Assembly: GCF_008065115.1 (NCBI RefSeq)
Contig: NZ_CP042913.1
Coordinates: 1,214,338-1,278,337, forward strand
Source: Bythopirellula goksoeyrii
GTDB lineage: Bacteria > Planctomycetota > Planctomycetia > Pirellulales > Lacipirellulaceae
Direction of reading: 5' to 3'
DNA length: 64,000 nt
Below, one piece after another: positions 5,045 through 26,255 of the stretch; the stretch's first letter is position 1, and each line of letters opens with the position of its first letter. Under the pieces are notes generated by a model. That model was not told the DNA's origin. It did not search any database and saw only the letters and a list, made by a program, of their open reading frames with translations. The translations under genes and the position numbers were made by a program.

Positions 5045-5187
5045 CGATCTGCTAGCCTACTGGCTTACCATCTGCACCTGCTAAACCTACCCAAAACATG
5101 CCCGCATCGTTAGACAAAGGCATCTCAATACGGAGTCTCCACTGGGGCCCACAACCACTCCCAAACAATTACCCACACAACTGTACG

Positions 5188-5260
5188 AGCTAGCGGAGGG
5201 AATTGAACCCACAACCTGCTGATTACAAATCAGCTGCTCTGCCAATTGAGCTACGCTAGC
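5188..5260 (-). tRNA. tRNA-Thr (anticodon TGT)
   Basis: A 73-base cloverleaf has a GCTAGCG/CGCTAGC acceptor stem, anticodon TGT in the loop TTTGTAA, and a GTTCAATTC T-arm. It is the first gene of the tRNA-tuf cluster and lies about 24 bases from the predicted transcription start. Confidence 0.95.
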
Positions 5261-5290
5261 CTGGCTGCTTGAAACTTACGCGAATCAACT

Positions 5291-5318
5291 AATATAACCG
5301 TGTTGGAATGTGTGACAA
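5291..5318 (-). promoter_or_regulatory. Sigma-70-type promoter of the tRNA-tuf-secE-nusG-ribosomal protein cluster
   Basis: On the minus strand a -35 box TTGTCA (one mismatch to TTGACA) and a -10 box TATATT (one mismatch to TATAAT) are separated by 16 bases. Transcription would start near 5284, just ahead of tRNA-Thr(TGT). This is the best match in the 148-base gap before the first gene. Confidence 0.65.
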
Positions 5319-5408
5319 GCCGATCAGGGCGAATTTCGCGCCAAAAAGATACTTGTGGCGTCAGACTCCCCCTCACAGAGCCACTCACCGCAGCAGAAGA
5401 GGGTAAAG

Positions 5409-7202
5409 TCACCCTATTTTGACATTTTTTGCTGTTCTATTCTTGTATGGCACCCTGCTACTCAGGAGGCCAACTCCGCAAAAGATCCCGCAGTATAGGC
5501 CCCAAAAGATAGGTTCCGGCACGAGAACAGCTTCCACTGAGCCATTAAATCCGTAGTTTGAGTGCCAAGTGGCCAGTTCTATCGAGTCAAGCGGATTTGG
5601 TGATTCGCCACGCTGCCATTTGAGGAAATCATTCCCGTCGACATCGAGGTCCCCATCAACATCACCGAAAAACTCCGGTGTCGATGCAAGTTCGGCCTGT
5701 ATCCAGTGGGCTATGGAGGGAACTCCTTTGTCATCTACCAAGAACAGCATGTAATAGCCAGGGGGTGCTTCGTTTCCGCTCGAGGGAAGATCAATGTTGA
5801 GCCCGCCATCAGTGATGACGAAATCGAGATTATTGGCACGCTGAGTCCAATTCTGGGCGTGCGTGACGGAACCTGGAATGACCCAGAGAGCTTTAGTAAT
5901 GCTCGCGGCGTCAGGAGTCTCCACGAAAATTGAATCGCCTAGGGCGGCTGACGAGGGTGCCAAACCAACCTCTGGCCGAACCGCCGGCGATCCATCGGGA
6001 GCAAATAAATAGGCAGGTGAGTAGATTTCTGCATTCAGGTTTTGTTGGAAGCCCCCGGTATCGTGGTCTCCGCCAGTCACAAGAACCCGGCCATCGGGGA
6101 GCAGTAGCGCAGTAGAATGGTAGCCGCGATATATGGATGAATCAGCTTCGGCAACTTGCGTGACTTGCTGAGTAGTGGGGTCCCAGATTTCTGCTACTGT
6201 GACAAGCCCGTTGGGATCGTTCCATCCAGTAACGTAGGTTCCCCCGGTGAGTAGAACCGTACCGTCAGCCAGTATCGTGGCGTTATTCTGCCGACGAGGT
6301 TGAGCCATCGTGTCCGCGCCGTAAGTCCAGGAAGGAGTCGCGTCGGTCAAATCCAATAGCGATATGTTGGCCGTGGGGACGTGCCCTCCGCCGATGTAGG
6401 CGATTTTTCCGGTATCGTACATGACCGCCGGACCGTAGTTATGCAGGTTAGAGTCAAGAGTGTCCCCTAAGTATTGCCAGGATCCAGTGCCTGAAACGTC
6501 AAGGAGATCTGTATCGTCGCCATAATTAGAGAGGGACACAACTCCACCATCGGGAGTCAAGAATGTGCGCGGGTAAAGAGGCAAACTCTTGTAGGCCGTA
6601 GTCAGGCTACGCCAGGAGTTGGTCTCAAACTCATATATCTGAGGCAGTGGATTGCTGTCAGGATCGAAGTTGCCATTCATCCCCCCCGATAGCATAAGAA
6701 TATCTCCATTACCTAGAGTGGTAGCGCTCGGATACCACCGCCCACGCTGTCCAGTAGTGTAAGGAGACGGCGGAGAGGAAAGGCTAGGCATGTTTGGCAC
6801 ATTGTTGGCCCAGGTATTGGTAAAGGGATCATAAATATTAGCCCTATCCAGGCCGTTGTCGTTCGTGATATGTCCTCCTCCAACAAAGAGTCGACCGTCG
6901 GGAAGCCAAGCATGTCCCGAGCAAAAAGGGTTGAAGGAAGTCGGATTCGGATAAGCAGCGCTGGAAAACTGATCCGTGTCGGGATCCCATAAACCGATAC
7001 TTTCGCGCCATGTCTGCCAAAACATGACTTTGCCCGTAGGCAACATGTGTACATGAATCGCCTCAACTCCTCCCCCCTGACCCCATGTAAAAACGTCTGT
7101 CCACTGCCCATTTACTGATGATTGCCCATACAGAGGAGTTGCAAACACAACACAGACGAGGAGGGTAAGTTGGGCACCAAGACTGGAAACGCATACTCGC
7201 AT
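5409..7202 (-). CDS. Galactose-oxidase-like copper radical oxidase, dockerin and PEP-CTERM anchored
   Basis: This exported protein (597 aa) resembles fungal galactose and glyoxal oxidases, which oxidise alcohols or aldehydes and reduce O2 to H2O2. After a signal peptide (about 1-27) come kelch blades with repeated LPDGRVLVTGG motifs and then the DUF1929/E-set domain. All expected cofactor residues are visible: Cys94 (FCSGHAWLPDGR) and Tyr157 (RGRWYPS) for the Cys-Tyr crosslink, axial Tyr361-His362 (YRGYHST), and His448 (SVTHAQNW). A dockerin-like Asp motif (GDVDGDLDVDGNDFLKWQR) and a PEP-CTERM tail (VPEP, hydrophobic stretch, basic end) follow. The start ATG overlaps the stop of the CHRD gene (TGATG), which indicates translational coupling. 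The substrate is unknown. Confidence 0.85.
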   Translation of the reverse strand: MRVCVSSLGAQLTLLVCVVFATPLYGQSSVNGQWTDVFTWGQGGGVEAIHVHMLPTGKVMFWQTWRESIGLWDPDTDQFSSAAYPNPTSFNPFCSGHAWLPDGRLFVGGGHITNDNGLDRANIYDPFTNTWANNVPNMPSLSSPPSPYTTGQRGRWYPSATTLGNGDILMLSGGMNGNFDPDSNPLPQIYEFETNSWRSLTTAYKSLPLYPRTFLTPDGGVVSLSNYGDDTDLLDVSGTGSWQYLGDTLDSNLHNYGPAVMYDTGKIAYIGGGHVPTANISLLDLTDATPSWTYGADTMAQPRRQNNATILADGTVLLTGGTYVTGWNDPNGLVTVAEIWDPTTQQVTQVAEADSSIYRGYHSTALLLPDGRVLVTGGDHDTGGFQQNLNAEIYSPAYLFAPDGSPAVRPEVGLAPSSAALGDSIFVETPDAASITKALWVIPGSVTHAQNWTQRANNLDFVITDGGLNIDLPSSGNEAPPGYYMLFLVDDKGVPSIAHWIQAELASTPEFFGDVDGDLDVDGNDFLKWQRGESPNPLDSIELATWHSNYGFNGSVEAVLVPEPIFWGLYCGIFCGVGLLSSRVPYKNRTAKNVKIG

Positions 7203-7900
7203 CACAATACTTCTCCGCGTCGCAAGCTACTTCTTCTCCCCATCCAAAGCATGACGGCACTCGCTAGGAGACCCCATGATGACGGTTCAGGGATTGGACT
7301 GATATGACCTCGGATCGCCATGGATGGAAAACCGGACTCATTGGTATGGACAGCCACCATTAGCCTGCCCTCATTGAGCGTGTCGAGCCAATTCGTGAGT
7401 GGTTTGCTGGTCAATGGGTAGAAAGGCAAGTAGGGAAGACCAGTTGTGGGGTCTATCGTCGCGTCTCCATCGTCCCACACCCCTGTGATTGTGCGGTTCT
7501 CGTAGTCGATCACACGGTCAGCGTCCTCTTCGGCGGGCTGATTATAGGTAGCCAGTCCAAAGATGTTCAATACGTGGGGTCCAATTGTATCAGGCACATG
7601 GAGGTGCAGATGAATGCCAATAATGTCATCAGGTTCGGTACGGTCAATCGCATTGGGCTTGAGACCGAGAAGGTGATCGAGAACAATCCGGTAAGTCAAC
7701 CTCGTTTGATCGGAATTCAGAGAGAGAAAGATCTCTCCGGTAGCTTCAGTCGTGGAAGGATGAGTATGAAAATCGTCTAGAAAAGCGTAGTAGCCATGAC
7801 CGCCACTTGCGCTGCCCAGGTGGCTTTGCTCATGCGCCTGGGATTTTCCTAGAAGTCCGAGCAATGAAAGTTGAAAGAGGAAGATCCAGATTCGCTGCAT
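7202..7900 (-). CDS. CHRD-domain protein with PEP-CTERM anchor
   Basis: A 232-residue exported protein has a signal peptide (1-22), a CHRD domain (about 32-205; GIHLHLHVP, then VAVHTNE and MAIRGHI near its end) and a C-terminal PEP-CTERM segment beginning PIPEPSSWG. CHRD domains occur in chordin and many bacterial surface proteins and have no established enzymatic role. The protein is rich in His (HLHLH), so metal binding is possible but unproven. It is the first gene of a two-gene unit with the copper radical oxidase; a copper-handling or partner role is only an inference from that coupling. Confidence 0.8.
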   Translation of the reverse strand: MQRIWIFLFQLSLLGLLGKSQAHEQSHLGSASGGHGYYAFLDDFHTHPSTTEATGEIFLSLNSDQTRLTYRIVLDHLLGLKPNAIDRTEPDDIIGIHLHLHVPDTIGPHVLNIFGLATYNQPAEEDADRVIDYENRTITGVWDDGDATIDPTTGLPYLPFYPLTSKPLTNWLDTLNEGRLMVAVHTNESGFPSMAIRGHISPIPEPSSWGLLASAVMLWMGRRSSLRRGEVL

Positions 7901-8007
7901 TTGATTTACCTAAGCATTGTCTCAGCATGTGCGCCTTCTAGAAAAGCAATGAGGCGGAAAGCAGAAAGCGATTGTCCGAAAACCCTCCAGCTCCACGTGC
8001 CTCAACC

Positions 8008-9735
8008 TTAACAGCGAAAAACAGTTGAGTCAAATTTTCGATTAACTCGAGTAAAAAAGACTAGAGCGACACTCCCAAGTAGTAGGTTCGAACCGGGTTC
8101 GGGCACCCGAGAGTCTGCAAAGAAAACATTCTCTTGCAACCCGGTCACACCGGTATTGAGTTCGATAAGTCGGCTGAGCGTAATAGAATTGAAGTCAATA
8201 ATCGCGGTCACCAGGGGGTCTTGGAGGTCTGAATCACCTGTAAAGAAGAATCGATCCCCGTCACGGAGACGTTGAAATTGGCTATCGATGATTTTCTGTG
8301 CCAGCGATCCCAGACTACTTTCGGGAAGATGGTCTTCTGCAATGATGGCAACCCAGGCGTCAAGATTGTCGGGAGTGCCATAGCTAGCCAAAAGCGCGGC
8401 AGCTGTAGTAGGGTCACTGGTAAGCTGTTGGAACTGACTAAAAGGAATGAGATTGTAGGCAATTCGCAAGAGGCTGTAGCTGTTTAGTAGACCCAGATCA
8501 CGGCCGCGCTGAATATCGATGGCAGCCAAGTCTGTTCCCCCAGCGCCGATGGGGCCAAAGGAGACGTTGCGCAACTCATCCACTATGTAGGCGTCGTTCT
8601 CCTGAGCCACCTGGACTGCAAGTCCTTTAAGAAGTAGGCCCAACAGGGCGGGATCGTTCTGCAGTATCTGATTGCGAGAAGTAGCATCGACTAGTGAAAT
8701 CTCATCGATTAAGACATCGCTGCTGTCGACAAGCAACAATTTCGGCGACTGCATACTGTGCCCAAAACGAAACGCCGCAGTCGAAAAGGCGGTGGTAATG
8801 GTAGCGTCCACGGTTTCGTCATAGTAGTAGTCGTTCGCAGAAGGAGCATTTGATCCCATGAGTGCAGGCAGAAACTCTTGGTAGGTGATCGCTTGCACCT
8901 CGGCTCCGACGATTTTTCGCGCCCATTGGTAGATTTCTTCGTCATTTAGCGTTCCGTCTCGCGCCTTGAGTAGGCCGGCAAGGCGATTGTGCTCCCTCAC
9001 AAACAAGGCGTGGGTCGCACTGAGAGTCGTGTTCTCATTTGCGCGAGAGTCACCGGTGAGGAACAGTCCCTCTCCATTGACCGCTGGCAGCATCCCACCA
9101 GCACTAGTCGCCAGCTTGCCATCGACGAAGGTTCTCAGTGAAGCAGCTGTTGTGGAGTCAGATCCGTAGACATGCGACGCATCGAGATAAGAAGTGTTGA
9201 GGTTGATTTGCCAACGAGGGATCGGCACGTCTCCCTGCTGAGTGGATTGCTTGTCGCCGTTACCTGTCGACGGATCAAAAGTAGAGCGGTGAAATGAGAT
9301 GGGCCCTGGGCCCAATGGGTCGTCTAATGCAGTAACTGGGATGGAAAAATCACCTACCTCACCGGTCGACAACAAGTCCGCATCCGTACTAGCAGGGATG
9401 AGGGACATATCGTGGGTGATGAACTGGCCCCATTGGACGACCCAGTCCGAAAGGTTGCGATCGTTAAAGATAGTAGCCTGCTGGGCAATTACCAAGTTAC
9501 TCACATCGCGGGGATTGGGTTTATCATGTTCGGTAATGACATCGCCAATGTCGTCAGGGTAGTCAGCGTCATAACCGAAACGTATTACACGCGTGTTGGC
9601 CGCTCCCTGGGCAGGGAAAATTGGATTATTCTGGGTCCCATCAATCGTGCGGAACTCGACCGCTGCCGCAGAAAATCCAGCACTTAGCACAAGCACAGCG
9701 GAAGATATTGCTCGAATTTGCGTCCCGCGCTTCAC
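8008..9735 (-). CDS. Animal-type haem peroxidase (peroxidasin/myeloperoxidase superfamily), PEP-CTERM anchored
   Basis: This exported protein (575 aa) belongs to the peroxidase-cyclooxygenase superfamily, which uses H2O2 to oxidise halides or organic substrates. Catalytic features are intact: distal Gln104/His108 in WGQFITHDM, the calcium loop STFDPS near 151, Arg231 and Glu234 in GDSRANEN, and proximal His326 in FRFGHSMQ. Later IDIQRGRDLGL matches the conserved helix. Asp109 and Glu234 are the positions used for ester links to haem in mammalian homologues. A VPEPGSN PEP-CTERM tail ends the protein; no dockerin motif is seen. The start is GTG with AGAGG six bases upstream. Confidence 0.9.
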   Translation of the reverse strand: MKRGTQIRAISSAVLVLSAGFSAAAVEFRTIDGTQNNPIFPAQGAANTRVIRFGYDADYPDDIGDVITEHDKPNPRDVSNLVIAQQATIFNDRNLSDWVVQWGQFITHDMSLIPASTDADLLSTGEVGDFSIPVTALDDPLGPGPISFHRSTFDPSTGNGDKQSTQQGDVPIPRWQINLNTSYLDASHVYGSDSTTAASLRTFVDGKLATSAGGMLPAVNGEGLFLTGDSRANENTTLSATHALFVREHNRLAGLLKARDGTLNDEEIYQWARKIVGAEVQAITYQEFLPALMGSNAPSANDYYYDETVDATITTAFSTAAFRFGHSMQSPKLLLVDSSDVLIDEISLVDATSRNQILQNDPALLGLLLKGLAVQVAQENDAYIVDELRNVSFGPIGAGGTDLAAIDIQRGRDLGLLNSYSLLRIAYNLIPFSQFQQLTSDPTTAAALLASYGTPDNLDAWVAIIAEDHLPESSLGSLAQKIIDSQFQRLRDGDRFFFTGDSDLQDPLVTAIIDFNSITLSRLIELNTGVTGLQENVFFADSRVPEPGSNLLLGSVALVFFTRVNRKFDSTVFRC

Positions 9736-9795
9736 GGAAAACCTCTACCCTGGAAAAGAAGGCACACGATTCTGCCCGACTCCGTTCCAGTGTAG

Positions 9796-9811
9796 TCGGG
9801 ACTTGTCCCGA
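9796..9811. repeat. Short palindrome TCGGGAC-TT-GTCCCGA
   Basis: A perfect 7-bp inverted repeat with a 2-base loop lies about 60 bases upstream of the peroxidase start. It could be an operator or part of a dispersed intergenic repeat; related GTCCCGA words occur near 29470 and 38928. Confidence 0.5.
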
Positions 9812-9861
9812 TTGAAAGAATATGGTGAGCTTGGATGGCTTTTCGAATATGATTCTGCTTA

Positions 9862-9878
9862 GAAGTCCTAACAAAACT
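9862..9878 (+). repeat. Left terminal inverted repeat of the IS element
   Basis: GAAGTCCTAACAAAACT matches the right end perfectly in inverse orientation. TTA at 9859-9861 is the left target-site copy. Confidence 0.9.
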
Positions 9879-10013
9879 GTCTGCTAGTGCCGTTGCTCAT
9901 GCGGTACGCTAGCACGATCAAATGAATACAAGTTGCATGAAACGACACGTATTTTTTACTTTGACGGGCAGAATACATCGAGACCTAAACCTCGATGCAA
10001 AGGAGTATCTGCC

Positions 10014-10811
10014 ATGGCCAAGCCCCTCGTGCCTGACGAACTTTGGGAGCGAATTGAACCGCTTATTCCTAAACAACCGTCCAAGCCTAAGGGAGGGCGA
10101 CCTCCAATTGAAGATCGCAAAGCGCTCACTGGCATCTTGTTCATATTGAAGACAGGGATTGCCTGGGAAGACTTGCCGCAAGAGATGCAGTGCGGCTCGG
10201 GCATGACATGCTGGAGACGCTTGCGAGACTGGCAGGAAGCGGGGGTATGGGAGGCGTTGGTGCAACTGCTGCTTGATGAATTGCGAGAAGCCAATCAGAT
10301 TGATTGGTCGCGCGCTGCCGTCGACAGCGCCAAGGCTCGTGCTATGGGGGGTGGCGAAAAGACTGGACCAGACCCTACGAATCGCACGAAGCCAGGTAGC
10401 AAACATCACGTTGTGACTGATGCCAATGGGATTCCTTTGAACGTGACGCTTACCGGAGCGAATCGACATGATGTGACGCAGCTGTTGCCAGTGATTGACG
10501 GCATTCCGCCAGTGACTGGGAAGCCTGGACATCCTCGGCAGCGCCCCGACCAAGTTTACGCCGACCGTGCTTACGATTCGCAACCACATCGCAAGCAACT
10601 TCGAGAGCGTGGCATCGAACCTCACTTGGCAAAGCGGAATACAGATCATGGCAGCGGATTGGGAATCTATCGTTGGGTTTCGGAGCGTACGCTTAGTTGG
10701 CTTCATCAGTTTCGACGCCTGAAAACCAGATACGATCGCCGAGAAGATATCCACGAAGCGTTCATTAAAATCGCCCAAGCGTTGATCTGCTTCAGATCGC
10801 TAAATTGGTAG
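10014..10811 (+). CDS. IS5-family DDE transposase
   Basis: A 265-residue transposase fills the element. It has an N-terminal helix-turn-helix-like part (LVPDELWERIEPLIP), then the DDE core: first Asp in AAVDSAKARA, second Asp in YADRAYDSQ, and Glu in the C-terminal YRWVSERTLSWLHQFRRL block. KPGSKHHVVTDANG is also typical of the family. The ATG at 10014 is chosen over an upstream in-frame ATG (9933) because AGGAG ends nine bases before it and the protein then begins MAKPLVPDELW like other IS5 members. The stop overlaps the inner end of the right inverted repeat. Confidence 0.93.
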   Translation: MAKPLVPDELWERIEPLIPKQPSKPKGGRPPIEDRKALTGILFILKTGIAWEDLPQEMQCGSGMTCWRRLRDWQEAGVWEALVQLLLDELREANQIDWSRAAVDSAKARAMGGGEKTGPDPTNRTKPGSKHHVVTDANGIPLNVTLTGANRHDVTQLLPVIDGIPPVTGKPGHPRQRPDQVYADRAYDSQPHRKQLRERGIEPHLAKRNTDHGSGLGIYRWVSERTLSWLHQFRRLKTRYDRREDIHEAFIKIAQALICFRSLNW

Positions 10812-10826
10812 TTTTGTTAGGACTTC
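10810..10826 (-). repeat. Right terminal inverted repeat of the IS element
   Basis: AGTTTTGTTAGGACTTC is the exact reverse complement of the left end. TTA at 10827-10829 is the right target-site copy. Confidence 0.9.
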
Positions 10827-13205
10827 TTAGAACTTCAGATTCTTGGTCAGCCTCATCTCGACGATGGCAAAGATGGCTCCTACCAGTAGCAAATAAGTCG
10901 TGGGCTCGGGCACGACAGCTACCGGAGTCGGCAGGGGGCCCGTGTATTGCCGCTGCCAGATGAGAAAATCGCGACCATCAACATCTTGATCGTCGTCGGC
11001 ATCGCCTTGCATGTGGGTGCTGCCCGTGGAGTAATTGGCTTGCCAGCGGGTGAGGTCGTCGCCGTCGACATCGCCGTCTTCTTCGAAGTCACCTGCCAAT
11101 GGGGCGATGAATTGATAGGCGATTGTCTGCGGAGTCGAAATATCGAGCCAGTTAAATCCTGAGGGGAGAGGGGGCAGATTAATCTGGGAAAAATTCCCGG
11201 TGATCGTGCCGGCGGTGTCTACAAGTGTGAAAATATCTCCATTGGTGGGAAAGTAGCCGGGAAGGAATGAGACGTTCAATTTTGTACTACCAGGGGTGAT
11301 CATGAACACATTGGATGGATCGGTAGAAAACAATTGATCGTACTCCAGGCCGGGGGTCGTGCCCCCGAGTTCCAAATTCAATTGACCGAAAAAGCTGATC
11401 TCATAGGTCCCTTCAAGCGGAACTTGTGCGGTCCCGCCTGGATCGCCAGGGGAATGGATGTTCGTAATGTTGATATCCTTCATTGTCCCCGAGCCACCCA
11501 CAGGACCGTTAATATTCAAGCGCACACTCGCAGAGGCCCCTTCGACTCGCCCGTTGTTGATGAAGGTGCCCGGTCCATTCACGCGGGAGGAACTGACGTT
11601 GCCAGCTGCTGTGCGGCGCAGAACATGGCTCTGACCAAGCGTTGCAGTAAAGCCAGCGTTTACGGTGACATCCGCAATACCAGGAGAGTCGAGGATTATT
11701 TCGCCGGTGCCGCTGATGTCCACGTTACCGTCCACTCGAAGGCCACTTCGAACGGTGATCGTATTGTTGTTGACAAATGTTGCACCTCCCAAGTTAAGCG
11801 GATTATTACCAATCGGAATCTCGATTGGAGCGTTATTCGTAATGTCCTCAAGGCGGGCACTATTGGTGACAGTAACTTTGCCGCCGCCGACGGCATCCAA
11901 GCGACCACCATGAATGACGGAGCTTCCTTGGAGATTGATCGTACCCCCGTTGGCCAGAATGACGCCACTTACATCGTCCTGAGTGATCGTAGAGCCGAGG
12001 ATCCCAATCGTGGCACCAGCTTCGGCGCGGATCATGCTATTGTTGGTTTTCGGGTGTATATTGAACAGTAGTTCGGTGCCGCCACTACGAGGCTCGGCAA
12101 TAATGAGACCATCATTGACGATTGCGCCTTGAATTTGCCCAACGCCGCGGATCGTTTGATTCGGCCCAAAAGTGCCGACTGTATTTGCATGTGAGGTGAT
12201 TGTTGCTCCCAGCCCCGGAGAATTCATGATGACTTCGCCCGTGCCATCGAGCGTACCCGTTTCTTCGAACTTCAATTGCGAGCCACTCACATTGTCCCGG
12301 TTGATCAAAATCGTGCCATTATTCGTAAATCCACCTCCTTCGACGAGCAGATTGCCAGTCGTTCCGCCGCCAGAGACGAGAATGAATTGTCCATCTAGCT
12401 CCTCGACGCTATCGAAAGTCAGCGCATTTCCGGTCGTCTGAAAGGCACCGCCATTCACTGATTTCAGCGTGCCTCCCGTGATGATGATGTTGTTCACAAA
12501 GACGGTATTGGTATCGGCAATGAGTAGGCCGGCACTCCCCTGAGTGAGGCTAACGCCTAATCTCAGCGTAGCGGTGGGCGATGATTGAATCGTGCCATGA
12601 TTGGTCTTGGAGCCGTCTCTTATCAAAAGTTCGGCTGTCGAGTCGCCATTGGCTTCCGAAGCGGTAATCGTGCCAAAGTTGATCAGGCTCATAGGAATCT
12701 GTCCTTCGCCCCGAATGGTGTGGTCAGCCTGATGAGTGACTGGATTACTTTTGTTGATGTTATTTAGGCGGGCATCGTCGGAGATCGCACCTAATTCGAT
12801 TTCACCACTGCCATCAATCGTGCCCCCTAGGGTGCCGAAGGTGAGTGTCGCCAAATCAGTAGAGTTGTCGCTGTTGACAGTAATGAGGCCATTATTTGTT
12901 AACGTGGTCCCATGGATTGTGAGTGTGTGGCCTCCCAGGATATCAATTTCGCCGCCGGCTAAAACTTCCAAAGTCTGAGCGCTGGCCGAGACCACATCGA
13001 CGATTGTAGGGGCAGGAGTTCCCACGGTTGTTGCTGTGGAACTGTTCGGAATCCCGTTGGACCAATTCTCCGCTGCGCTCCAAAGTTCCGGATTCGTGAG
13101 ATCATCTCCCTCCCAAGTCGTTTGGCCTTGAGCTAGCGAAGATATAAGTGAGGCGAGATAAGCGAAGAGGAGCAGAATCTCAGAGCAGTGCGGGCGAGGC
13201 ATCAT
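10827..13205 (-). CDS. Large beta-repeat surface protein with dockerin and PEP-CTERM anchor
   Basis: A 792-residue exported protein has a signal peptide (1-28), then a WENWSNG-type start (about 45) and many imperfect repeats rich in Gly, Asn and Thr (GGTLKSVNGGAF, GGTINLQGSSVI) that resemble autotransporter-like beta-helix passenger repeats. Two dockerin-like Asp motifs (GDFEEDGDVDGDDLTRWQ and GDADDDQDVDGRDFLIWQR) come next, then a VVPEPTTY PEP-CTERM tail. No catalytic motif is visible; a structural or adhesion role is inferred. The TAA stop is part of the IS target duplication, so the coding sequence is intact but its native downstream DNA has been pushed about 970 bp away. Confidence 0.8.
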   Translation of the reverse strand: MMPRPHCSEILLLFAYLASLISSLAQGQTTWEGDDLTNPELWSAAENWSNGIPNSSTATTVGTPAPTIVDVVSASAQTLEVLAGGEIDILGGHTLTIHGTTLTNNGLITVNSDNSTDLATLTFGTLGGTIDGSGEIELGAISDDARLNNINKSNPVTHQADHTIRGEGQIPMSLINFGTITASEANGDSTAELLIRDGSKTNHGTIQSSPTATLRLGVSLTQGSAGLLIADTNTVFVNNIIITGGTLKSVNGGAFQTTGNALTFDSVEELDGQFILVSGGGTTGNLLVEGGGFTNNGTILINRDNVSGSQLKFEETGTLDGTGEVIMNSPGLGATITSHANTVGTFGPNQTIRGVGQIQGAIVNDGLIIAEPRSGGTELLFNIHPKTNNSMIRAEAGATIGILGSTITQDDVSGVILANGGTINLQGSSVIHGGRLDAVGGGKVTVTNSARLEDITNNAPIEIPIGNNPLNLGGATFVNNNTITVRSGLRVDGNVDISGTGEIILDSPGIADVTVNAGFTATLGQSHVLRRTAAGNVSSSRVNGPGTFINNGRVEGASASVRLNINGPVGGSGTMKDINITNIHSPGDPGGTAQVPLEGTYEISFFGQLNLELGGTTPGLEYDQLFSTDPSNVFMITPGSTKLNVSFLPGYFPTNGDIFTLVDTAGTITGNFSQINLPPLPSGFNWLDISTPQTIAYQFIAPLAGDFEEDGDVDGDDLTRWQANYSTGSTHMQGDADDDQDVDGRDFLIWQRQYTGPLPTPVAVVPEPTTYLLLVGAIFAIVEMRLTKNLKF

Positions 13206-14085: not shown

Positions 14086-16236
14086 CTACAAAGGTCTCCG
14101 TTTGATGACCAAAAGGGCTGCTGCAACAAGGATGGACACGATGCCTGTGGGTTCGGGTACAACCGTGGCTGAGGACAGCACGGCTCCCACACCATAGTTG
14201 CTCTGCCAATCCGCCAGGTCGCCAACACTGGGGTTTCTCTGCCATAGGAGAAAATCATGTCCATCGACATCTCCATCCGAGTCGAAGTCCCCTGAGGTCC
14301 CCAGGCCAAGCACCTTTAGCACCACACTATCAGACAGATAATCAACACCCCACTGAAACCCCGCGGGAAGCACGAGGTTGTCGAACGCGCCAGAGACACC
14401 CTCGCCAGTCGTGAGAAAGGTAAACATATTTCCAACTGCAGGAGTGAAATTCACGAGCGAGACTTCGAGTGTACCACTAAGAAAAGCGAACCGATCCACT
14501 TCGAGCAGATCAAATTGTCCCGGCGTGGTCCCGCCGAGTTGAATAGCCAGAGTACCGTTGACGAGGTTGGAATAATCACCGACGATTTCCAGCGCACCGA
14601 TACCATTGCCCGGTTCAATGCGACCGGAGAGATTTCGCACGACCCCCGTTATCGGCCCCGTGCCAACAAACACGCTGCCATTGCCGCGGAGAGTCCCTCC
14701 CTCGATATTGACAAACTGGGCATCAAGTCTCGTGCCACTATCATTGAGCGAGACTATGCCTCCATTCTCAATGCGGGTCTCACCAAAAGTAGTGAGTTTT
14801 TGAGTACCGTTGAGTTGGAGTCGCAGCGTGGAATTCTGTCCTCCGGCAACCACCAATTGATTGACTATGGAGTTACCCGTAAGATTCACGAACTGAGTGG
14901 GAATCGCTGTGTTGCGAAGTTCAGCAACCCACATCTGATTGGGCACTCCATTGGCCGTCCAATTGGTGGGGGTCTGAAAAATGGCTTGAGAAACGGTACT
15001 TGTCCAGGTGTGATTCTCTACGACAGGGTCACTGATGTAGAGACTCGGACCAGTTCCACCCTGACCTATCGAAGGATTTGCATCGATCACCAGATCGCGC
15101 CCCGTGAACAGATGCATGCCAAGAATGCCGTCAATGATGTTTCCTGGATCGTTGGGGTTTGTGACGTCCAACACGGCAATCGGCACGCGTTGCATGGTGA
15201 AGGTTCCCCCGACGGTATCTATATTCAATTCGTCAAGGTAAAACCCAGGTATGCCGGCGGAAACACCACCGGAACCTTCAACCTCTAGCACAAAATCGGG
15301 CGTGTCAAGGATGGGGTCGAAACCAAGCCGGGCGGCGGTGATTTCGCTCACTACTGTCAGATCGGCCCCGGTATCGAAAAGCAACTCTTTGTCCTGAAGC
15401 GATTTGGTGCCTCGTGCCATGTCCACATCAATGAAGAGCCCACCGTTTTCGATAATCGTTGGGGAAAGGGGGTTTTCATGGAAATTGAAGTTTCCCCCAA
15501 GGATATCGAGATTCTGAATGTACAGGGGGCCCGCGATAAAGGAAGAACCGGGACGAATTTTAAGGGGAGCACGTCTTGTAATGCTCCCTCCACCGATGCC
15601 GAGATCATCGAACTCAACCTCGGGGGTCCGTACGGTCCGGCCCCCTAGTTCAAAAATCTGCGGCTCGCTGTTCTTGATCGTGATGGAATGCTGCGCTGCC
15701 ATTGGCAAGCCCAAAATATTTGGCAGCTTCCATTCGGTCGGTGCACTCAGGGTGGCAACACTTGACTGTCCTCGCAAGTTTGCTGAGGGATTCTTGGTGA
15801 GAGTCGCACCGTTCGCCGTGAAGTTCTTAAGCCCTCCTGCATAGATGGCAAGCGGGTTGTTGATCTCCAGATTGATCAATCCCGTAGCGCCACCAATTTG
15901 TTGAATATTGTCGCCGTCGAAATTATTGCCGTGGATATCAAACCCGTTGGGTCCATCTGCTTGCGAAGTGAGAATGTGCGTCGCAGCCCCCGTATCAAGC
16001 AGCGCAATGTCGTAATACGGAGATCCTCCACCCGAGAGAGGATTGCCAACAATCGATGTCTCAGGATCCGCCAAAAAAAAGGTTCCGGAAAGATCGGTAC
16101 TCGCGTTCTTAAATTCGTCCGTAAGACCAATTCCTGCAAAGGGAATAAACCCGCCCAGGGGAGCAGTTGCTCCCTTCACTTGCGGAGCGAGCAGAGCACA
16201 AGTTACCAGTACGCACAAAAGCTTACGAATTGCCAT
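14086..16236 (-). CDS. Two-lobed aspartic-protease-like surface protein with dockerin and PEP-CTERM anchor
   Basis: A 716-residue exported protein has a signal peptide (1-22) and two retropepsin-like half-domains in one chain. The first has LLDTGAATHI (Asp81) and NILGLPM near 174. The second has LLFDTGADLTVV (Asp288) and IIDGILGMHLF near 368. Two DTG catalytic motifs, each paired with an I-L-G flap-base motif, are the hallmark of pepsin-type bilobal proteases. The C-terminal half has beta-repeat passenger-like sequence, a GDFDSDGDVDGHDFLLWQR dockerin motif and a VVPEPTG PEP-CTERM tail. ATG at 16236 is preferred over GTG at 16239 because AAGGA lies eight bases upstream. Confidence 0.75.
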   Translation of the reverse strand: MAIRKLLCVLVTCALLAPQVKGATAPLGGFIPFAGIGLTDEFKNASTDLSGTFFLADPETSIVGNPLSGGGSPYYDIALLDTGAATHILTSQADGPNGFDIHGNNFDGDNIQQIGGATGLINLEINNPLAIYAGGLKNFTANGATLTKNPSANLRGQSSVATLSAPTEWKLPNILGLPMAAQHSITIKNSEPQIFELGGRTVRTPEVEFDDLGIGGGSITRRAPLKIRPGSSFIAGPLYIQNLDILGGNFNFHENPLSPTIIENGGLFIDVDMARGTKSLQDKELLFDTGADLTVVSEITAARLGFDPILDTPDFVLEVEGSGGVSAGIPGFYLDELNIDTVGGTFTMQRVPIAVLDVTNPNDPGNIIDGILGMHLFTGRDLVIDANPSIGQGGTGPSLYISDPVVENHTWTSTVSQAIFQTPTNWTANGVPNQMWVAELRNTAIPTQFVNLTGNSIVNQLVVAGGQNSTLRLQLNGTQKLTTFGETRIENGGIVSLNDSGTRLDAQFVNIEGGTLRGNGSVFVGTGPITGVVRNLSGRIEPGNGIGALEIVGDYSNLVNGTLAIQLGGTTPGQFDLLEVDRFAFLSGTLEVSLVNFTPAVGNMFTFLTTGEGVSGAFDNLVLPAGFQWGVDYLSDSVVLKVLGLGTSGDFDSDGDVDGHDFLLWQRNPSVGDLADWQSNYGVGAVLSSATVVPEPTGIVSILVAAALLVIKRRPL

Positions 16237-16523
16237 CACTATGTTCCTTGGCCGATCCGTAGAATTCGGCAGTTAGTGTGCAGGAAGCACAGGGAAAGTT
16301 ATTTGGGGAAGCCGCGCAATAGCACAGAATGAGCCTCCCGCGCTGGCCAATAAGAAAACGTTGGCCGCTTGCCATGCGGTAAATATCGCACCAATCCGTG
16401 CGAAGAAGATCTCTGTTCCCGTCCATTTAGGTTAAACGGGCACGTGATCCAGGTCAAGCAGGCTTGTTAGACGAGATGCAGAGCCCCAGCGCAGCAGAGC
16501 GAGATTCCCAGTGCAAACGGCAC

Positions 16524-19052: not shown

Positions 19053-21341
19053 TCACTCTTCCTTGGCAGCAGCAATCCGCTTGGCCTTGCTCTGTCCGCT
19101 CTGAATCCGAGTGATGCGGCGATCCGCTTTGAACGGCATGCCGTTGACCACACAACCAATCAGTCGGATACCCAAGTTCTTGAGCAATTCAGAGGCCTGA
19201 TGAATACTTCGAACTCCACTGTGGTCACGCAACACGGTGAGGATTGCCCCATCAATGTACTGACCAATCGACAACGAGTCAGAAAGTCCGAGAATCGGGG
19301 CACCATCAATAATCACAAAGTCGAATTCGCCCCTCAGCTTTTCAAAGATGGGCTGCAATTGATCGGTTGCCAAAGCATGGATAGCATCCATATCACATTG
19401 ACCAGCAGTCATGAGCCAAAGACCCTCAGTACTTGTAGGGCGAACGGCGTCCGCGATCTCTATTTCGGATCGCACGAGTTCGCTCACGCCATCTTCCAAG
19501 GGCATTCCAAACAACTTGTGCAATGAGGGGTCACGGAGATCACCGTCGATTAAGAGCGTCCGTCGGCCTGCTCGTGTCAAACTCAGTGCCAGGTGGCTAG
19601 CTACAGTGGTTGATCCCTCCATCGAAGAGGGGCTGGCCACCAACACGATCTGGCGAGGTCGCGAGGTTGAGTCGTGCATCAAGGTAGCGCGGACATTGTC
19701 GATGGACTCTGCGAGCTGAGCCGCCGTGGTGCTGCCTGGCGCCATCGCTTTGCGTGAGGCGACCGACGGCAAGACACCGAGAACTCGGATACCCAGACCT
19801 TCATCAACATCCTCTGGGGAATTCAACTTCCGACGGCGAAATTCCAGCAAGGCGACTCCATAACAAGTCAGGCAGAACGCCGCCAGCCCGCCGATCGAGG
19901 CGATTGCATAACGCTGGTAGACATTGATTTTCTCCGTGGAGAACGCGTTTTGCATAACTTTAATTCTGTCAGGTGATGCTTCCTGTACTTTCCAACTCCG
20001 TAGCCTCCAGTCCATTTGACGCTCAATCTCTTGTAGCGACTCAACCTCGGCAGTGAGCATCGAAAGTTCACCATTTTCTTGGCCGAGTGCCTCGATCTCT
20101 TCTTTCTTGGTATCGAGATCATTCTGCAAATCGGTAATAGACTGATTCAGAGCGTTGCGACGCATGATGTACTCAGTCATCACCTGCTGCATCGCATCGT
20201 TGGGGGCATTTTTCAGCTGAGCTGCAAGATCTCGTTCTCGCTGAGCTCGATATTGTCTTTCCGCTTCGCGAACGCTGGCCATTCCTTGTTGCAATCGTTT
20301 GATCTCAGGAGAAGAAGGTCTTTTGGTGAGTGACTGCAATTGGCGAAGCTGCTGTGAAAGAGCATATTGCTCTTGTTGATATCCTTGAATGGTAGGATCA
20401 GCGTCCAGTTCGGCGTCAATGGCCTGTTTCATTGCCGTGGGGCTCGTGAGTGCACGCGCCTGAAGTTCCCGATTAACCTCCAGATCAACCAATTGTTCTT
20501 TCGCTTCAAAAATCCGTTGGTTCAGCGAGCCAACGTCGCGAATTAACATATTAAGCTCCGCGGAAGCATTAGGCGAACCTGCCCCTTTAAGTTCCTTTTG
20601 GAGCGTTTGCATCTTGTCGATTTTCCCACGTAATTCGACCAAAAGCTGTTTGTGCAATTTATCCATGCTGAGGTGTGTCTCAGACTTACTGATTTCTGCC
20701 GCAGCGAGCACTTCTTGCTTGTAGGCATCAACCACTGCATCGATGATCATTTTCATTTCTTTAGGGTCTTCATCCCCCTCATAGCTGATCATGAGTATCT
20801 TACTCTCACCAGGGAAGGAAACCCGCAGTTCATCCTGGAGCCACGTAAGCTCATCCGGACGATTTTTAACGACTGCGTTGAGTTCACGGATGTCGCCACG
20901 ATTGAGTGCAGCCATCAAGACAAACTGACTTTTCAGCAACGTGAGTTGCGTTTGTTGGAAAATCTCAAATTCTTTTGGGTTCATTGTTCGAGTCTTTTCA
21001 CCCAACATGTCCTCAGACTCTTGATCCTCCACCTGCAAGTAGGCCACCACTTGCGATGAGAGGGGAAAAAGCCACATCAAAAGCAAGCCTGCCAAAATCG
21101 CACCTAGGGTGCCCAGCAGCAAAGCCGAGAGCCAGCGACGCCGCAGGCAATTCATGATCCAAGTCTGATTGAGTGGGCCGGTTAGGATCTCCGGACCGCG
21201 AGGCGGGCCTCCGGGAAATCCCCCGTTGCCGGGCGTTGCGTACGGAGCATTCGCGGGCACCATTGACTGGTTCGGCCCGTGGTTGACTGCCATCGGAGGA
21301 TACATAACCTCAGAACCATTGAATCCAGAATCTTGTTTCAT
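19053..21341 (-). CDS. Wzc-like exopolysaccharide chain-length/tyrosine-kinase-like protein with altered Walker A
   Basis: This 762-residue protein combines a Wzz-type membrane region (helix near 80), a long coiled coil (about 190-480), a second helix and a cytoplasmic BY-kinase-like domain. Walker A' (LLIDGDLRDPSLH) and Walker B (FVIIDGAPI) are present, but the P-loop reads SSMEGSTTVA: the catalytic Lys of GEGKTT is Ser577 (codon TCA at 19611-19613). The C-terminus has no Tyr cluster. It may therefore regulate polymer length without kinase activity. ATG at 21341 has AGAGAGGT upstream and is preferred to GTG at 21383. It sits beside the exosortase gene. Confidence 0.85.
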   Translation of the reverse strand: MKQDSGFNGSEVMYPPMAVNHGPNQSMVPANAPYATPGNGGFPGGPPRGPEILTGPLNQTWIMNCLRRRWLSALLLGTLGAILAGLLLMWLFPLSSQVVAYLQVEDQESEDMLGEKTRTMNPKEFEIFQQTQLTLLKSQFVLMAALNRGDIRELNAVVKNRPDELTWLQDELRVSFPGESKILMISYEGDEDPKEMKMIIDAVVDAYKQEVLAAAEISKSETHLSMDKLHKQLLVELRGKIDKMQTLQKELKGAGSPNASAELNMLIRDVGSLNQRIFEAKEQLVDLEVNRELQARALTSPTAMKQAIDAELDADPTIQGYQQEQYALSQQLRQLQSLTKRPSSPEIKRLQQGMASVREAERQYRAQRERDLAAQLKNAPNDAMQQVMTEYIMRRNALNQSITDLQNDLDTKKEEIEALGQENGELSMLTAEVESLQEIERQMDWRLRSWKVQEASPDRIKVMQNAFSTEKINVYQRYAIASIGGLAAFCLTCYGVALLEFRRRKLNSPEDVDEGLGIRVLGVLPSVASRKAMAPGSTTAAQLAESIDNVRATLMHDSTSRPRQIVLVASPSSMEGSTTVASHLALSLTRAGRRTLLIDGDLRDPSLHKLFGMPLEDGVSELVRSEIEIADAVRPTSTEGLWLMTAGQCDMDAIHALATDQLQPIFEKLRGEFDFVIIDGAPILGLSDSLSIGQYIDGAILTVLRDHSGVRSIHQASELLKNLGIRLIGCVVNGMPFKADRRITRIQSGQSKAKRIAAAKEE

Positions 21342-21554
21342 CGAAAACCTCTCTGAAAAACGCTCGATTTGCGGCAATGCCACCTATGGTGACTTGTTCG
21401 CAAATCATGACAACGCAAACTAAAATGGGCCGGGGAAGGCTGGGAATGTCAGGTTCGCTGGGAAAAGTAGTTGGCAATTCAGCATCTGGCGATCCCTTGT
21501 CCGACAGCTCCCCCTGCCATGGGGAAGTCGTGGACTTCCGTTGCAACTCTTGCT

Positions 21555-21757: not shown

Positions 21758-22693
21758 TTATCCGTGGGCTGCTCCAAAACTCGCATAATCGTCAGATTCA
21801 ATAGGAACAGTCAACTTGGAAAGCAAAGTCAACTCGATCCACAGGAAGCCGAGCGCAATCGGCATCATCGCCAGACCGGCCCAATTGTGTATGTAATGGT
21901 GAATAGCATCATTATCAGGAAAAGCCAGGTAAAGTAGGGCAGTCAGGGTTATGCGAATAACGTTCGTCGCCAGGGCGACAGGAATCGCAAAAACGAGTAT
22001 CGTCAATCGATCCCACCATGGCCGATCGATGACCATCGCTAAAGCCACGGACATCGCGCCAAAGATAGTGCCCATTCGCAACCCGCTACAAGCATCAGCC
22101 ACCTCCAAGGGTAGCTTCTCGATGATGATGTGACTCCCTTCGCGTAGCGCGGGGATCCCCAGCAATTGCAATGTCCATGTACTCCACATCGCTGCTAGCG
22201 TTTGTAGCTTCAATAGAACCGTGTTCTCAAGCTTTGAGGGCAATGGGAACATAAACACCAAGAAGGCAACTGGAGGGCCTGCCCACTTTAACATGTCATA
22301 CCCACCTACAATCAGGCACACTCCCAAAAGTGCTCCGATGTAGCTCAGACGGTCAAGGGGATTCATATCAAGATACGACGCATACAGTCGAACGAGCAGG
22401 CACCCAAGTACTATGGCCACTCCGATCCACCGCTCGATGCTAGGAACTGCCGTAAGTCGCTTGCGACGAAACCAGAACAGTCCTGCTGCAAATACGGGGA
22501 TAATGTAACCATGCGAATACAGCCCATCCGACCAAGAATGCGCGGTGAATTCCAGCATGTTGAAGTAGCCGAGAGTAAGTAAGAGAACCAACACTCCGAA
22601 ACAAATCCAAGCCGCCTGCTCTTGGGAATGGCTTAGGTGGTCGGAGTGGTCCTCACTCTCAAAGGAGGAAAAAGCATGAGTAGGGCTGGCCAT
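21758..22693 (-). CDS. Exosortase (EpsH/Xrt family)
   Basis: Exosortase is the membrane transpeptidase-like enzyme thought to cleave PEP-CTERM proteins and attach them at the surface. The 311-residue protein has about eight hydrophobic helices and all three conserved catalytic positions: Cys202 in EVADACSGLRMG, Arg247 in NVIRIT and His269 in YIHNWAG. Its likely substrates include at least six PEP-CTERM proteins in this window. It is transcribed away from the Wza-like gene and upstream of the Wzc-like gene. A planctomycete XrtU-type assignment is plausible but was not tested. Confidence 0.9.
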   Translation of the reverse strand: MASPTHAFSSFESEDHSDHLSHSQEQAAWICFGVLVLLLTLGYFNMLEFTAHSWSDGLYSHGYIIPVFAAGLFWFRRKRLTAVPSIERWIGVAIVLGCLLVRLYASYLDMNPLDRLSYIGALLGVCLIVGGYDMLKWAGPPVAFLVFMFPLPSKLENTVLLKLQTLAAMWSTWTLQLLGIPALREGSHIIIEKLPLEVADACSGLRMGTIFGAMSVALAMVIDRPWWDRLTILVFAIPVALATNVIRITLTALLYLAFPDNDAIHHYIHNWAGLAMMPIALGFLWIELTLLSKLTVPIESDDYASFGAAHG

Positions 22694-23334: not shown

Positions 23335-24402
23335 ATGATACTCAGCAACAGTCGACAAACAGGTTTAGCCAAGACACTGGCGGTTTTTGCAGTGTTGCTG
23401 GGTAGTTCAGGATGTACTGCCTTTCTCGCCCCGCGCGATCCCTTCCCAGCCACTCCGCCAGAACCTCCTATTGAGAGTTCTGTACCGCGTGAACTGGAGA
23501 AGGTGACTTTGCCTCGCTACGTAATCGAGCCTCCCGATATTTTGCTTGTAGAAGGAGTGAAACTCGTACCAAAATCACCTCACAAAATTGAGACTTTCGA
23601 CGCTCTTCTTGTCCGAGTATCGGGCGCCTTCCCAGACAAGCCCATCGACGATGCTTACTCTGTCGACGCCGATGGTAGCATCAATCTGGGGCCGGCCTAC
23701 GGTCGGATTAAAGTGACTGGACTTACCTTGGAAGAAGCTGAGGACGAAGTTCGCCGACAACTCTCCCAAATACTGACCGATGTCGATGTTTCAATATCAC
23801 TCTTGCAGTCTGCAGGTGCCCAAGCCGTCACGGGTCAACACTTGGTTGGGCCGGATGGCAGGGTCAACTTGGGGACTTATGGTTCGGCATTTGTTGCTGG
23901 CATGACTATTGAGGAAGCCAAGGCTGCGATCGAAGAGCAATTGAGCTTGAAACTTGAGAGCCCCGAGGTGTTTGTCGACGTCTTAGCCTACAACAGCAAG
24001 CTCTACTACGTGATTACCCAAGGAGGTGGCTTCGGCGACGACGTCACGCGCCTTCCGATTACGGGCAATGAGACTGTGCTCGATGCGGTCGCGTCGATTG
24101 GTGGTATTTCTCAGGTTTCCTCGTCAAGAATGTGGATTGCCCGTCCGGCACCAAATGGTGTGGGATGTGAGCAGATTCTACCCGTCAACTGGGAAGATAT
24201 CAGCCGCGGTGCTGCGACGGCAACGAATTACCAGCTCATGCCGGGCGACCGACTATTTATCGCCCAAGATCGCTATACAGCAGGAACGGCTACCGTGGCA
24301 AAGATCCTGCGACCTTTCGAGTCGATCTTCGGATTCATGTCACTTAGCACCTCGGCACTCAACCAGATTGCTCGGTTCGGCTTAAGCAATTTCAGTAACT
24401 AA
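23335..24402 (+). CDS. Polysaccharide export lipoprotein, Wza/OtnA-like
   Basis: A 355-residue outer-membrane export protein has a signal peptide ending in a lipobox (LGSSGC, Cys27). A Poly_export domain follows (YVIEPPDILLV near 63, then YSVDADGSINLGPAYGRIKV), then SLBB-type repeats (QHLVGPDGRVNLGTYG and a second copy near 228). Wza proteins form the channel that carries capsule or exopolysaccharide across the outer membrane. It starts a plus-strand group with the unknown secreted protein and EpsI, opposite to the exosortase. Confidence 0.9.
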   Translation: MILSNSRQTGLAKTLAVFAVLLGSSGCTAFLAPRDPFPATPPEPPIESSVPRELEKVTLPRYVIEPPDILLVEGVKLVPKSPHKIETFDALLVRVSGAFPDKPIDDAYSVDADGSINLGPAYGRIKVTGLTLEEAEDEVRRQLSQILTDVDVSISLLQSAGAQAVTGQHLVGPDGRVNLGTYGSAFVAGMTIEEAKAAIEEQLSLKLESPEVFVDVLAYNSKLYYVITQGGGFGDDVTRLPITGNETVLDAVASIGGISQVSSSRMWIARPAPNGVGCEQILPVNWEDISRGAATATNYQLMPGDRLFIAQDRYTAGTATVAKILRPFESIFGFMSLSTSALNQIARFGLSNFSN

Positions 24403-25277: not shown

Positions 25278-25493
25278 AGTCGTGGATCTAGACCACTTCG
25301 AGAATCGATTTCCAACTGCTTCATGCATGCTTGTCGTAGTGAGATAGAACGGATTGTTCCGCTGCTAGCGATTATAGGCCTGAGCAGCCCCGTACTACCG
25401 GTTCGCGCTTTGGGCAATTCTTGACAGGTGCTCGCGGGATGCCTACCGTAATAGTAGTGCTAGCCCGTCCCATCTCACTTGTTAGAGTCTTCT

Positions 25494-26255
25494 ATGGATC
25501 GCAATCTCCTGTTACCTGCCCTGATGGGTGGGATTCTCATTGTCTCTCTATGCTTTTACGAGCAAGTCTACATGAAGGACTATTGGGGCGAACCAGGCGC
25601 CGAAGCGGCTGAGATGGGGAAGCGATTTGCCCAGGTTCCGAAGGTGATTGGCGATTGGGTCGGACAGGACCTTCCCGTAGATGAAATCGTCAAGAATACC
25701 GCAGGGGCGGTCAATTATGTCTCGCGGCGTTACAAGAATAAGAAGACCGGCCGTGAAGTGACACTATGGTTAATCGTGGGCCACTCACGCGATGTTTGCC
25801 GCCACACTCCCAACATCTGTTATCCGGCTTCCGGATTCCGCCAGGATGGAATTCAGATCAAACACCACTTGGATTTGCCATCTGGTAAGACCTCCGATTT
25901 CTTTACTGCGAAGTTCATCAAAGACGATGCCTTCGGTCGACGCGTGGAACGGGTCTTTTGGGCCTGGAATCACCCAGATCGAGATCTTTGGGAAGCTCCA
26001 GATTATCCACGCGTTCACTATGGCCTATCGCGAGCACTCTACAAAGTCTATTTCACAAGCGATGTTCTTGTGGATGAGAATACCGCCGAAGCAAATGTTG
26101 CCGCCGAATTTGCCGAGTTGATGCTTCCCAAGATCAATGAGGCACTCTTCCCGGAATCCTCTGCAGATGTCGAGTCAATCTCCGAGGAAGTGAACGTGGA
26201 TGATTCCGCGGGTTCTGCTCAAGAGACTGTCGAGGAAGAAACCACTTCCCAGTGA
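25494..26255 (+). CDS. epsI: EpsI-family (DUF3485) exosortase-associated protein
   Basis: A 253-residue protein has one N-terminal membrane helix (LPALMGGILIVSLCFYEQ) and an EpsI domain: PKVIGDWVGQDLPVD, then VNYVSRRYKNKKTGREVTLW and GHSRDVCRHTPNICYPASGF. EpsI accompanies exosortase/EPS loci in many bacteria; its biochemical role is not established. The C-terminus is a Glu/Ser/Val-rich tail absent from typical members. ATG at 25494 fits the membrane segment better than TTG at 25479. A terminator follows. Confidence 0.85.
   Translation: MDRNLLLPALMGGILIVSLCFYEQVYMKDYWGEPGAEAAEMGKRFAQVPKVIGDWVGQDLPVDEIVKNTAGAVNYVSRRYKNKKTGREVTLWLIVGHSRDVCRHTPNICYPASGFRQDGIQIKHHLDLPSGKTSDFFTAKFIKDDAFGRRVERVFWAWNHPDRDLWEAPDYPRVHYGLSRALYKVYFTSDVLVDENTAEANVAAEFAELMLPKINEALFPESSADVESISEEVNVDDSAGSAQETVEEETTSQ

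Follow-up and report, generated by a model that had tools for sequence, protein, structure and literature searches.

A peroxidase-CHRD-copper radical oxidase gene cassette in the planctomycete Bythopirellula goksoeyrii, a putative bacterial variant of the oxidase-peroxidase tandem

The genome of the planctomycete Bythopirellula goksoeyrii carries, in the stretch of 64,000 nucleotides analysed here (the window; contig NZ_CP042913.1, positions 1,214,338 to 1,278,337, renumbered from its first letter), a cassette of three genes encoding an animal-type haem peroxidase, a CHRD-domain protein and a copper radical oxidase. We regard this cassette as a new bacterial variant of the known oxidase-peroxidase tandem, with a CHRD protein as partner. 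That the three exported-type proteins also work like the fungal Perox-AlcOx tandem, whose peroxidase switches the oxidase on, is a tentative reading drawn by analogy, to which we give a probability of about 0.45. To judge from sequence, the genes are intact, their products are of exported type and such oxidases are recurrently paired with peroxidases; all that goes beyond this we infer.

All three are minus-strand genes arranged head to tail, in the order An_peroxidase (8008-9735, 575 amino acids), CHRD gene (7202-7900, 232 amino acids) and copper radical oxidase (5409-7202, 597 amino acids). An earlier note on this DNA had located the oxidase and peroxidase reading frames correctly and had called them neighbours on one strand; the common strand stands, whereas direct adjacency does not, because the CHRD gene between them had been overlooked. 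The TGA stop codon of the CHRD gene shares bases with the ATG of the oxidase gene (TGATG, read from the sequence), and such stop/start overlaps are a common sign of coupled translation. Residues of the oxidase are numbered from this ATG at 7202; from the GTG listed at 7205 the protein would have 598 amino acids and all numbers would rise by one. The G+C content of the cassette (0.51-0.53) is similar to that of its surroundings, and a genomic island defined by base composition was dropped for this reason.

The last gene of the cassette encodes an AA5-type copper radical oxidase of the galactose oxidase/GlxA fold. Pfam recognized a GO-like_E_set domain (1.7e-17) and Kelch repeats, with Glyoxal_oxid_N under its cut-off, and the top PDB sequence match was GlxA of Streptomyces (4unm, 6.8e-37). 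When the protein is aligned with GlxA and galactose oxidase, the cofactor residues Cys94, Trp156-Tyr157, Tyr361-His362 and His448 are all present; Tyr361, His362 and His448 are invariant in 55 aligned sequences, and Cys94 and Tyr157 are kept in at least 90% of them. The cross-link tyrosine lies in the context RGRWYPS, with RWYP as in GlxA, at a place where the Pseudoarthrobacter enzyme has GRGYQS. An AF2 model built from the 55 sequences had a mean predicted local distance difference test score (pLDDT) of 92.5, the loop preceding Tyr157 being its weakest stretch. This model matched bacterial galactose oxidase, GlxA, fungal galactose oxidase and AlcOx with Z 46-50 over ∼440 residues (root-mean-square deviation 1.8-2.1), glyoxal oxidase with Z 40.4 and the next fold with only Z 22.5, and it has the Kelch propeller and E-set of the galactose-oxidase fold. 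Its top structural match is the galactose oxidase of Pseudoarthrobacter siccitolerans (9g43/9g8h; Z 49.8, 33% identity over 439 residues), for which we know of no paired peroxidase. Fold and alignment thus support an AA5 copper-radical site in the predicted structure. The galactose-oxidase-like protein with five cofactor residues described in the earlier note is borne out by Pfam, PDB match, fold and alignment, its Cys94/Tyr157 numbering being right from the ATG, and the modelling of the copper site that the note had proposed agrees with it at the fold level. With 194.8 bits against a cut-off of 800, the protein falls outside the GlxA equivalog NF052501. A dockerin-like linker (GDVDGDLDVDGNDFLKWQRG..., 5502-5675, minus strand, read from the sequence) leads from the oxidase core to the C-terminal tail and is common to other proteins of the same genome and family, whose matches are confined to query residues ∼450-590. 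Same-family matches covering only this dockerin-like/PEP-CTERM part were not counted as oxidases, and short kelch-only matches (genomes G172, G215, G259 and G294) were also excluded from the oxidase counts.

The first gene encodes an animal-type haem peroxidase that matches the full An_peroxidase model (Pfam 1.6e-123; 413.6 bits against the PF03098 gathering cut-off of 25) and, over its full length, PDB entry 8s6c, its top sequence match (1.2e-113; labelled Lactoperoxidase). A PEP motif ends both proteins, and the PEP-type tail suggests that 8s6c is of bacterial origin. The window peroxidase retains Gln104, His108, Arg231, Glu234, His326 and the residues of the calcium site, whose roles (distal Gln-His, Arg, proximal His, calcium site and ester positions) we take to be those in myeloperoxidase (MPO) and lactoperoxidase (LPO); the distal and proximal histidines already noticed earlier are His108 and His326. 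At the position of MPO Asp94, presumably the aspartate that forms one haem ester in MPO and LPO, the window protein has Thr107, and Glu234 is kept, so that the residue pair for the MPO/LPO double ester is incomplete. This threonine, and a one-residue insertion (Ser419) after RGRD, also distinguish it from 8s6c. Among the 26 peroxidase rows compared (those passing a motif filter out of 29 loci, two rows being the same protein), threonine occupies the ester position in four and serine in one, and the insertion, with the altered residues in the RGRDHGLPDYN stretch, is seen in none. The genome encodes two further An_peroxidases elsewhere, which makes three copies altogether.

The middle gene encodes a CHRD-domain protein (PF07452, 3.6e-11; 44.4 bits against a cut-off of 24.1). 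A profile of bacterial CHRD proteins matches human chordin (9rd6, 9igm and 9qvv) and so indicates homology, with 6.7e-11 summed over the repeats and 0.085 for the best single stretch; the window CHRD sequence alone found no match in the PDB. His97, His99 and His185, in HxH and HT motifs, are invariant in eight aligned bacterial CHRD proteins, a set that leaves aside the weak matches L041 and L044 (query residues 168-229 only, no HxH; tail-only). The same histidines are invariant in the 10 proteins of a further alignment (A5, made without L151, L154, L155 and L161), part of which was collected by patterns requiring HT or HxH, so that the motif was partly a search condition and only histidines outside the pattern are independent evidence. 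Human chordin repeats, in contrast, are without most of these HxH and HT histidines. A literature search found no publication in which CHRD and PEP-CTERM appear together.

All three cassette proteins have an N-terminal hydrophobic stretch and end with a VPEP or IPEP motif followed by a hydrophobic stretch and then a basic tail. These tails are encoded on the minus strand. That of the peroxidase (VPEP..., 8011-8106) scores 12.8 bits with TIGR02595 (cut-off 16), and the CHRD tail (IPEP..., 7205-7294) 15.4 bits with the same model and 17 bits with PF07589 (cut-off 20.7); the oxidase tail (VPEP..., 5412-5522) has the motif and hydrophobic stretch, with no PEP-CTERM hidden Markov model (HMM) match. 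The PEP-CTERM assignment of these proteins is accordingly motif-level. Of the view that oxidase and peroxidase are both exported and PEP-CTERM anchored, the export-type N-termini and the tail motifs are upheld; the HMM scores are under the cut-off or missing, and anchoring is a prediction.

In other bacteria, too, such oxidases repeatedly stand beside haem peroxidases. Across the class we found 19 oxidase loci in 18 of 397 genomes, and at three of them, in the window genome (G000), G171 and G392, an An_peroxidase gene lies within 2 kb. Given the copy numbers and random placement, 0.013 such loci would be expected within 2 kb; when the window is left out, two stand against 0.011 expected (P = 6e-5, or 4e-4 at 5 kb), figures that are guides, as the estimate presumes random gene placement and the distance limit was set post hoc. 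In G171 the oxidase gene comes first, the opposite of the window order, and is separated from the peroxidase gene by 22 bp; in G392 the peroxidase gene comes first, and the open reading frames (ORFs) overlap as called by ∼10 bp. A scan of species genomes, covering 79 loci from the best 80 of 518 confirmed stretches, found an An_peroxidase in the flanks of two, L131 (Actinomycetospora) and L116 (Acidobacteriaceae). The oxidase gene of G187 has a DyP peroxidase gene two genes upstream, with a GH31 gene between them. These flank searches covered An_peroxidase, with our own HMMs, and one DyP seed. Closer to the window, the oxidase was found in 2 of the 43 genomes of the family and the pair in the window genome only; the remaining 13 genomes of the genus, of which several are incomplete, do not have the pair. 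An An_peroxidase is carried by 10 of the 18 oxidase-bearing genomes of the class. The family search and the peroxidase search of oxidase-bearing genomes scored all candidates; the class-wide searches scored up to four per genome, so that copy numbers from them are lower bounds. The co-occurrence in relatives proposed as a check in the earlier note is therefore seen as recurrent adjacency above random placement, and neither as strict conservation nor at the genome level.

In a tree of the oxidases (95 rows, quick method), the window protein groups with that of G305, and G171 with G123, while L116, L131, G392, G187, G060 and L130 form one clade, each group with 100% Shimodaira-Hasegawa-like approximate likelihood ratio test (SH-aLRT) support. 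The tree left out L132 (the G187 locus), G001 (truncated, its oxidase gene being cut by a contig end) and G135 (partial). In the peroxidase tree, G171 belongs to a supported group of four, the window protein is outside this group, and L116, L131 and G392 form a clade. The window and G171 are thus apart in both trees. The position of the L116, L131 and G392 oxidases in one clade of six, together with their peroxidase clade, points to an older pair. On the simplest view, the pairing arose on about three occasions, one of which gave a form now present in three phyla; replacement or loss within an older pair could also have produced the tree pattern. Pairing of this kind, most familiar from fungi that attack plants, is rare in bacteria and seems to have been assembled there more than once.

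Some further observations concern the surroundings of AA5 oxidases. Among 112 immediate neighbours scanned, DUF3466 occurs in 12 and 3-keto-disaccharide hydrolase in three, both commoner than An_peroxidase. Three oxidases of one clade (L047, L048 and L179, in G187, G060 and G392) adjoin a GH31-like gene, and two of the three also have a nearby haem peroxidase, DyP or animal-type. By eye, the AA5 domain is apparently fused behind a multicopper-oxidase-like N-terminal part at L055 10081-13260 (G097) and behind a cupredoxin-like one at L053 8496-10733 (G104).

The cassette is located in a slot bounded on its left by a tRNA-Thr(UGU) gene (5187-5260, minus strand). Upstream of the cassette lies an IS5-family insertion sequence (9858-10830, plus strand; transposase 9933-10811, 21-bp inverted repeats), the sole match of this element in its own genome. 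Judged by EF-Tu, the closest relative is G300 (98% identical). The flanks of the slot are conserved in it: the same tRNA cluster borders one end, and the two PEP-CTERM genes known from the window border the other. The cassette is replaced there by one large gene for a 1467-amino acid PEP-CTERM protein, which resembles the oxidase solely in its dockerin-like/PEP-CTERM tail, and comparison of the slot DNA (window 5261-10830 with L197 2599-7767) gave only short, weak matches past the first 86 bp. As the G300 slot carries a different gene and little shared DNA, we take the cassette to be a lineage-specific occupant of a variable slot, gained here or lost in G300. The adjoining PEP-CTERM gene (10827-13205) takes its stop codon from the end of the IS5 element (10810-10830), which probably clipped it on insertion, since its homologue in G300 ends in a C-terminal tail that is different and longer.

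At a distance of 9-16 kb from the cassette is an exopolysaccharide/exosortase locus. Its genes encode a tyrosine autokinase of the polysaccharide-biosynthesis type (19053-21383, minus strand; TIGR01007 109.4 bits, cut-off 108.05; 84.6 bits, under the cut-off, with the XrtA-associated kinase model TIGR03018), an exosortase that is the candidate processor of the PEP-CTERM tails (21758-22693, minus strand; PF09721 9.5e-57), a polysaccharide export protein (23335-24402, plus strand; PF02563 5.6e-24) and a DUF3485 protein (25479-26255, plus strand; PF11984 1.5e-13), presumably EpsI-like. This exosortase is one of three homologues in the genome. A Pfam scan of 18 window ORFs found no glycosyltransferase. 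Between cassette and locus, at 14086-16239, we also noted a retropepsin-like aspartyl protease (PF13650), exported-looking, with a dockerin-like segment and a PEP-CTERM-like tail.

To be fully active, copper radical oxidases require a one-electron oxidant. In fungi, a natural activator that is cognate to the oxidase has been demonstrated: in Colletotrichum and Magnaporthe, an AA5_2 oxidase and a class II peroxidase form the Perox-AlcOx tandem, and CorPerox activates CorAlcOx by oxidizing its resting copper centre, which thereby takes on the active radical form, according to the accessible part of PMC9770985. The window likewise pairs a gene for a secreted-type copper radical oxidase with one for a secreted-type haem peroxidase. 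Whereas the fungal genes are head to head, conserved in the genus and combined with a class II peroxidase, the bacterial ones are co-directional, enclose a CHRD gene, encode an animal-type peroxidase and are not conserved in the genus, and activation is proposed for them by analogy. Among the literature matches listed, in a search outside which subscription papers and preprints fall, no paper described a bacterial copper radical oxidase that has an animal-type peroxidase as its partner. The GlxA system of Streptomyces is the other relevant comparison: GlxA produces H2O2 that the peroxidase DtpA uses, as stated in the available text of PMC4736821, and acts with a glycan synthase in CslA-GlxA glucan synthesis (PMC11022532, as far as its text was available). 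The window resembles this system in having a bacterial GlxA-fold oxidase (4unm, Z 48.7), a peroxidase partner and a glycan context. It differs from it in that DtpA is a DyP peroxidase, the window oxidase is far under the GlxA equivalog cut-off and the window ORFs scanned include no glycosyltransferase.

On these analogies, the oxidase would oxidize a primary alcohol, a sugar C6-OH or an aldehyde and reduce O2 to H2O2; the peroxidase, charged with this H2O2, would remove one electron from the resting Cu(II) oxidase and so turn it on, and it may in addition oxidize low-potential donors such as phenolics. The CHRD protein would keep the set in the matrix or carry copper. As target, the glycan that the cell itself exports is the likeliest, given that an exosortase/polysaccharide-export locus is nearby and that GlxA acts with a glycan synthase. 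Polymer attack, crosslinking or defence, the uses suggested in the earlier note, would be conceivable functions; the exosortase/polysaccharide context slightly favours the cell's own matrix as substrate. A peroxidase that is both activator of the oxidase and user of its H2O2, with the own exported glycan as target, is in our view the most likely arrangement. The extracellular H2O2 relay of the earlier note fits the intact signatures, common strand and export signals, and is incomplete, since in the best precedent the peroxidase switches the oxidase on (PMC9770985, in its accessible part).

Several observations weigh against this reading. Co-transcription is at most a possibility: the CHRD and peroxidase genes are 107 bp apart, the insertion sequence leaves 122 bp on the upstream side of the peroxidase gene, and promoter and terminator scans were at shuffle level (7 against 4.8 and 7 against 5.4 in shuffled sequences), so that we claim no operon from them. 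No An_peroxidase lies within 2 kb at 16 of the 19 planctomycete oxidase loci, nor in the available flanks of 77 of the 79 species-genome loci, flanks that end at contig ends, so that the count is no proof of absence. Pairing with An_peroxidase is the exception among such oxidases, because these peroxidases make up only 2 of 112 immediate neighbours scanned (112 of 132 called, over-long and some other ones being omitted; five loci had no oxidase gene call). Genome by genome, the two enzymes occur together no more often than background (5 of 11 against 111 of 286, p = 0.76, counts compiled by hand from several genome searches), and co-occurrence was dropped as support for the pair. The chance estimate for adjacency is itself only a guide, and G171, one of its three loci, is listed with 9% contamination. 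Around the nearest homologue of the oxidase, a PEP-CTERM-tailed protein of G305 (55% identical), the 20 kb read contain neither a peroxidase gene nor a CHRD gene, two peroxidases being encoded elsewhere in that genome; its locus (L149 1593-16087) holds PEP-CTERM proteins and repeat-rich ones, which by eye look related to polysaccharides. Finally, DtpA gave GlxA no activity boost over horseradish peroxidase, as the available part of PMC4736821 reports, and for this reason peroxidase activation of such oxidases is not universal.

These observations leave room for other explanations. The slot between tRNA-Thr and the next PEP-CTERM gene may simply gather exported PEP-CTERM proteins, oxidase and peroxidase having landed together without joint function. 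The different occupant in G300, the unpaired oxidase of G305, the frequency of An_peroxidases (116 of 297 class genomes, and three copies here) and the missing genome-level co-occurrence agree with this; however, adjacency recurs beyond random placement even when the window is excluded, and the CHRD stop codon overlaps the oxidase start, so that we consider accidental neighbourhood somewhat unlikely. Less probable still is a GlxA-like matrix enzyme that modifies exopolysaccharide, next to a peroxidase that merely removes H2O2 or independently oxidizes Mn(II), halide or phenols. The oxidase is indeed nearer to GlxA and the bacterial galactose oxidase (Z 48-50) than to the fungal glyoxal oxidase, and the exosortase and polysaccharide genes lie nearby; the haem peroxidase MopA does oxidize Mn(II), according to the accessible text of PMC6247904. 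This explanation, however, leaves the repeated pairing with non-sister peroxidases unaccounted for. The architecture of MopA, which is large and repeat-rich, is moreover not seen in the 575-amino acid protein.

A very improbable alternative is that the CHRD protein is an SOD-like (superoxide dismutase-like) copper chaperone or dismutase serving the oxidase, in a copper-haem redox trio. The three histidines conserved in bacterial CHRD alignments suggest such a copper site, and human chordin, which the bacterial profile matches, has CHRD domains with an SOD-like barrel. The barrel is described as free of metal, and the human domains as binding sulphated glycosaminoglycans, in the accessible part of PMC13382577. 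Against the alternative, part of the A5 alignment was gathered by patterns requiring these histidines. Moreover, the protein has no Pfam Sod_Cu match at E 0.01 and has three conserved histidines instead of the full Cu/Zn ligand set. SodC profile comparisons were weak and differed in register (probability 2.8 and E 0.016 with HxH on HxH; 0.7 in another alignment), and we set them aside as proof of homology; the structure model (pLDDT 52.8; best fold match Z 7.1, the rows shown being antibody-type domains) was not used. No convincing CHRD gene adjoins the other scanned oxidases, a CHRD-profile match at L066 (E 0.0016) being judged a shared tail, and GlxA maturation uses Sco (PMC4736821, available part).

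Taken further, the activator reading would make the cassette one case of a self-activating surface copper-haem module: bacterial copper radical oxidases would repeatedly and independently have recruited haem peroxidases of unrelated families, those of animal type on about three occasions and a DyP on at least one, to serve as their dedicated redox switches, and in this planctomycete a CHRD protein bearing SOD-like copper ligands would be a third partner that delivers copper or tunes superoxide. We consider this broader scheme unlikely, and well below the activator reading itself. If the peroxidase does activate the oxidase, the cassette would be the bacterial counterpart of the activator known from fungi, built on another peroxidase family and made repeatedly, which would point to a frequent need for a haem partner among such oxidases. 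The cassette would also supply a candidate activator and may offer planctomycetes a route to oxidize or cross-link the glycans of their surface.

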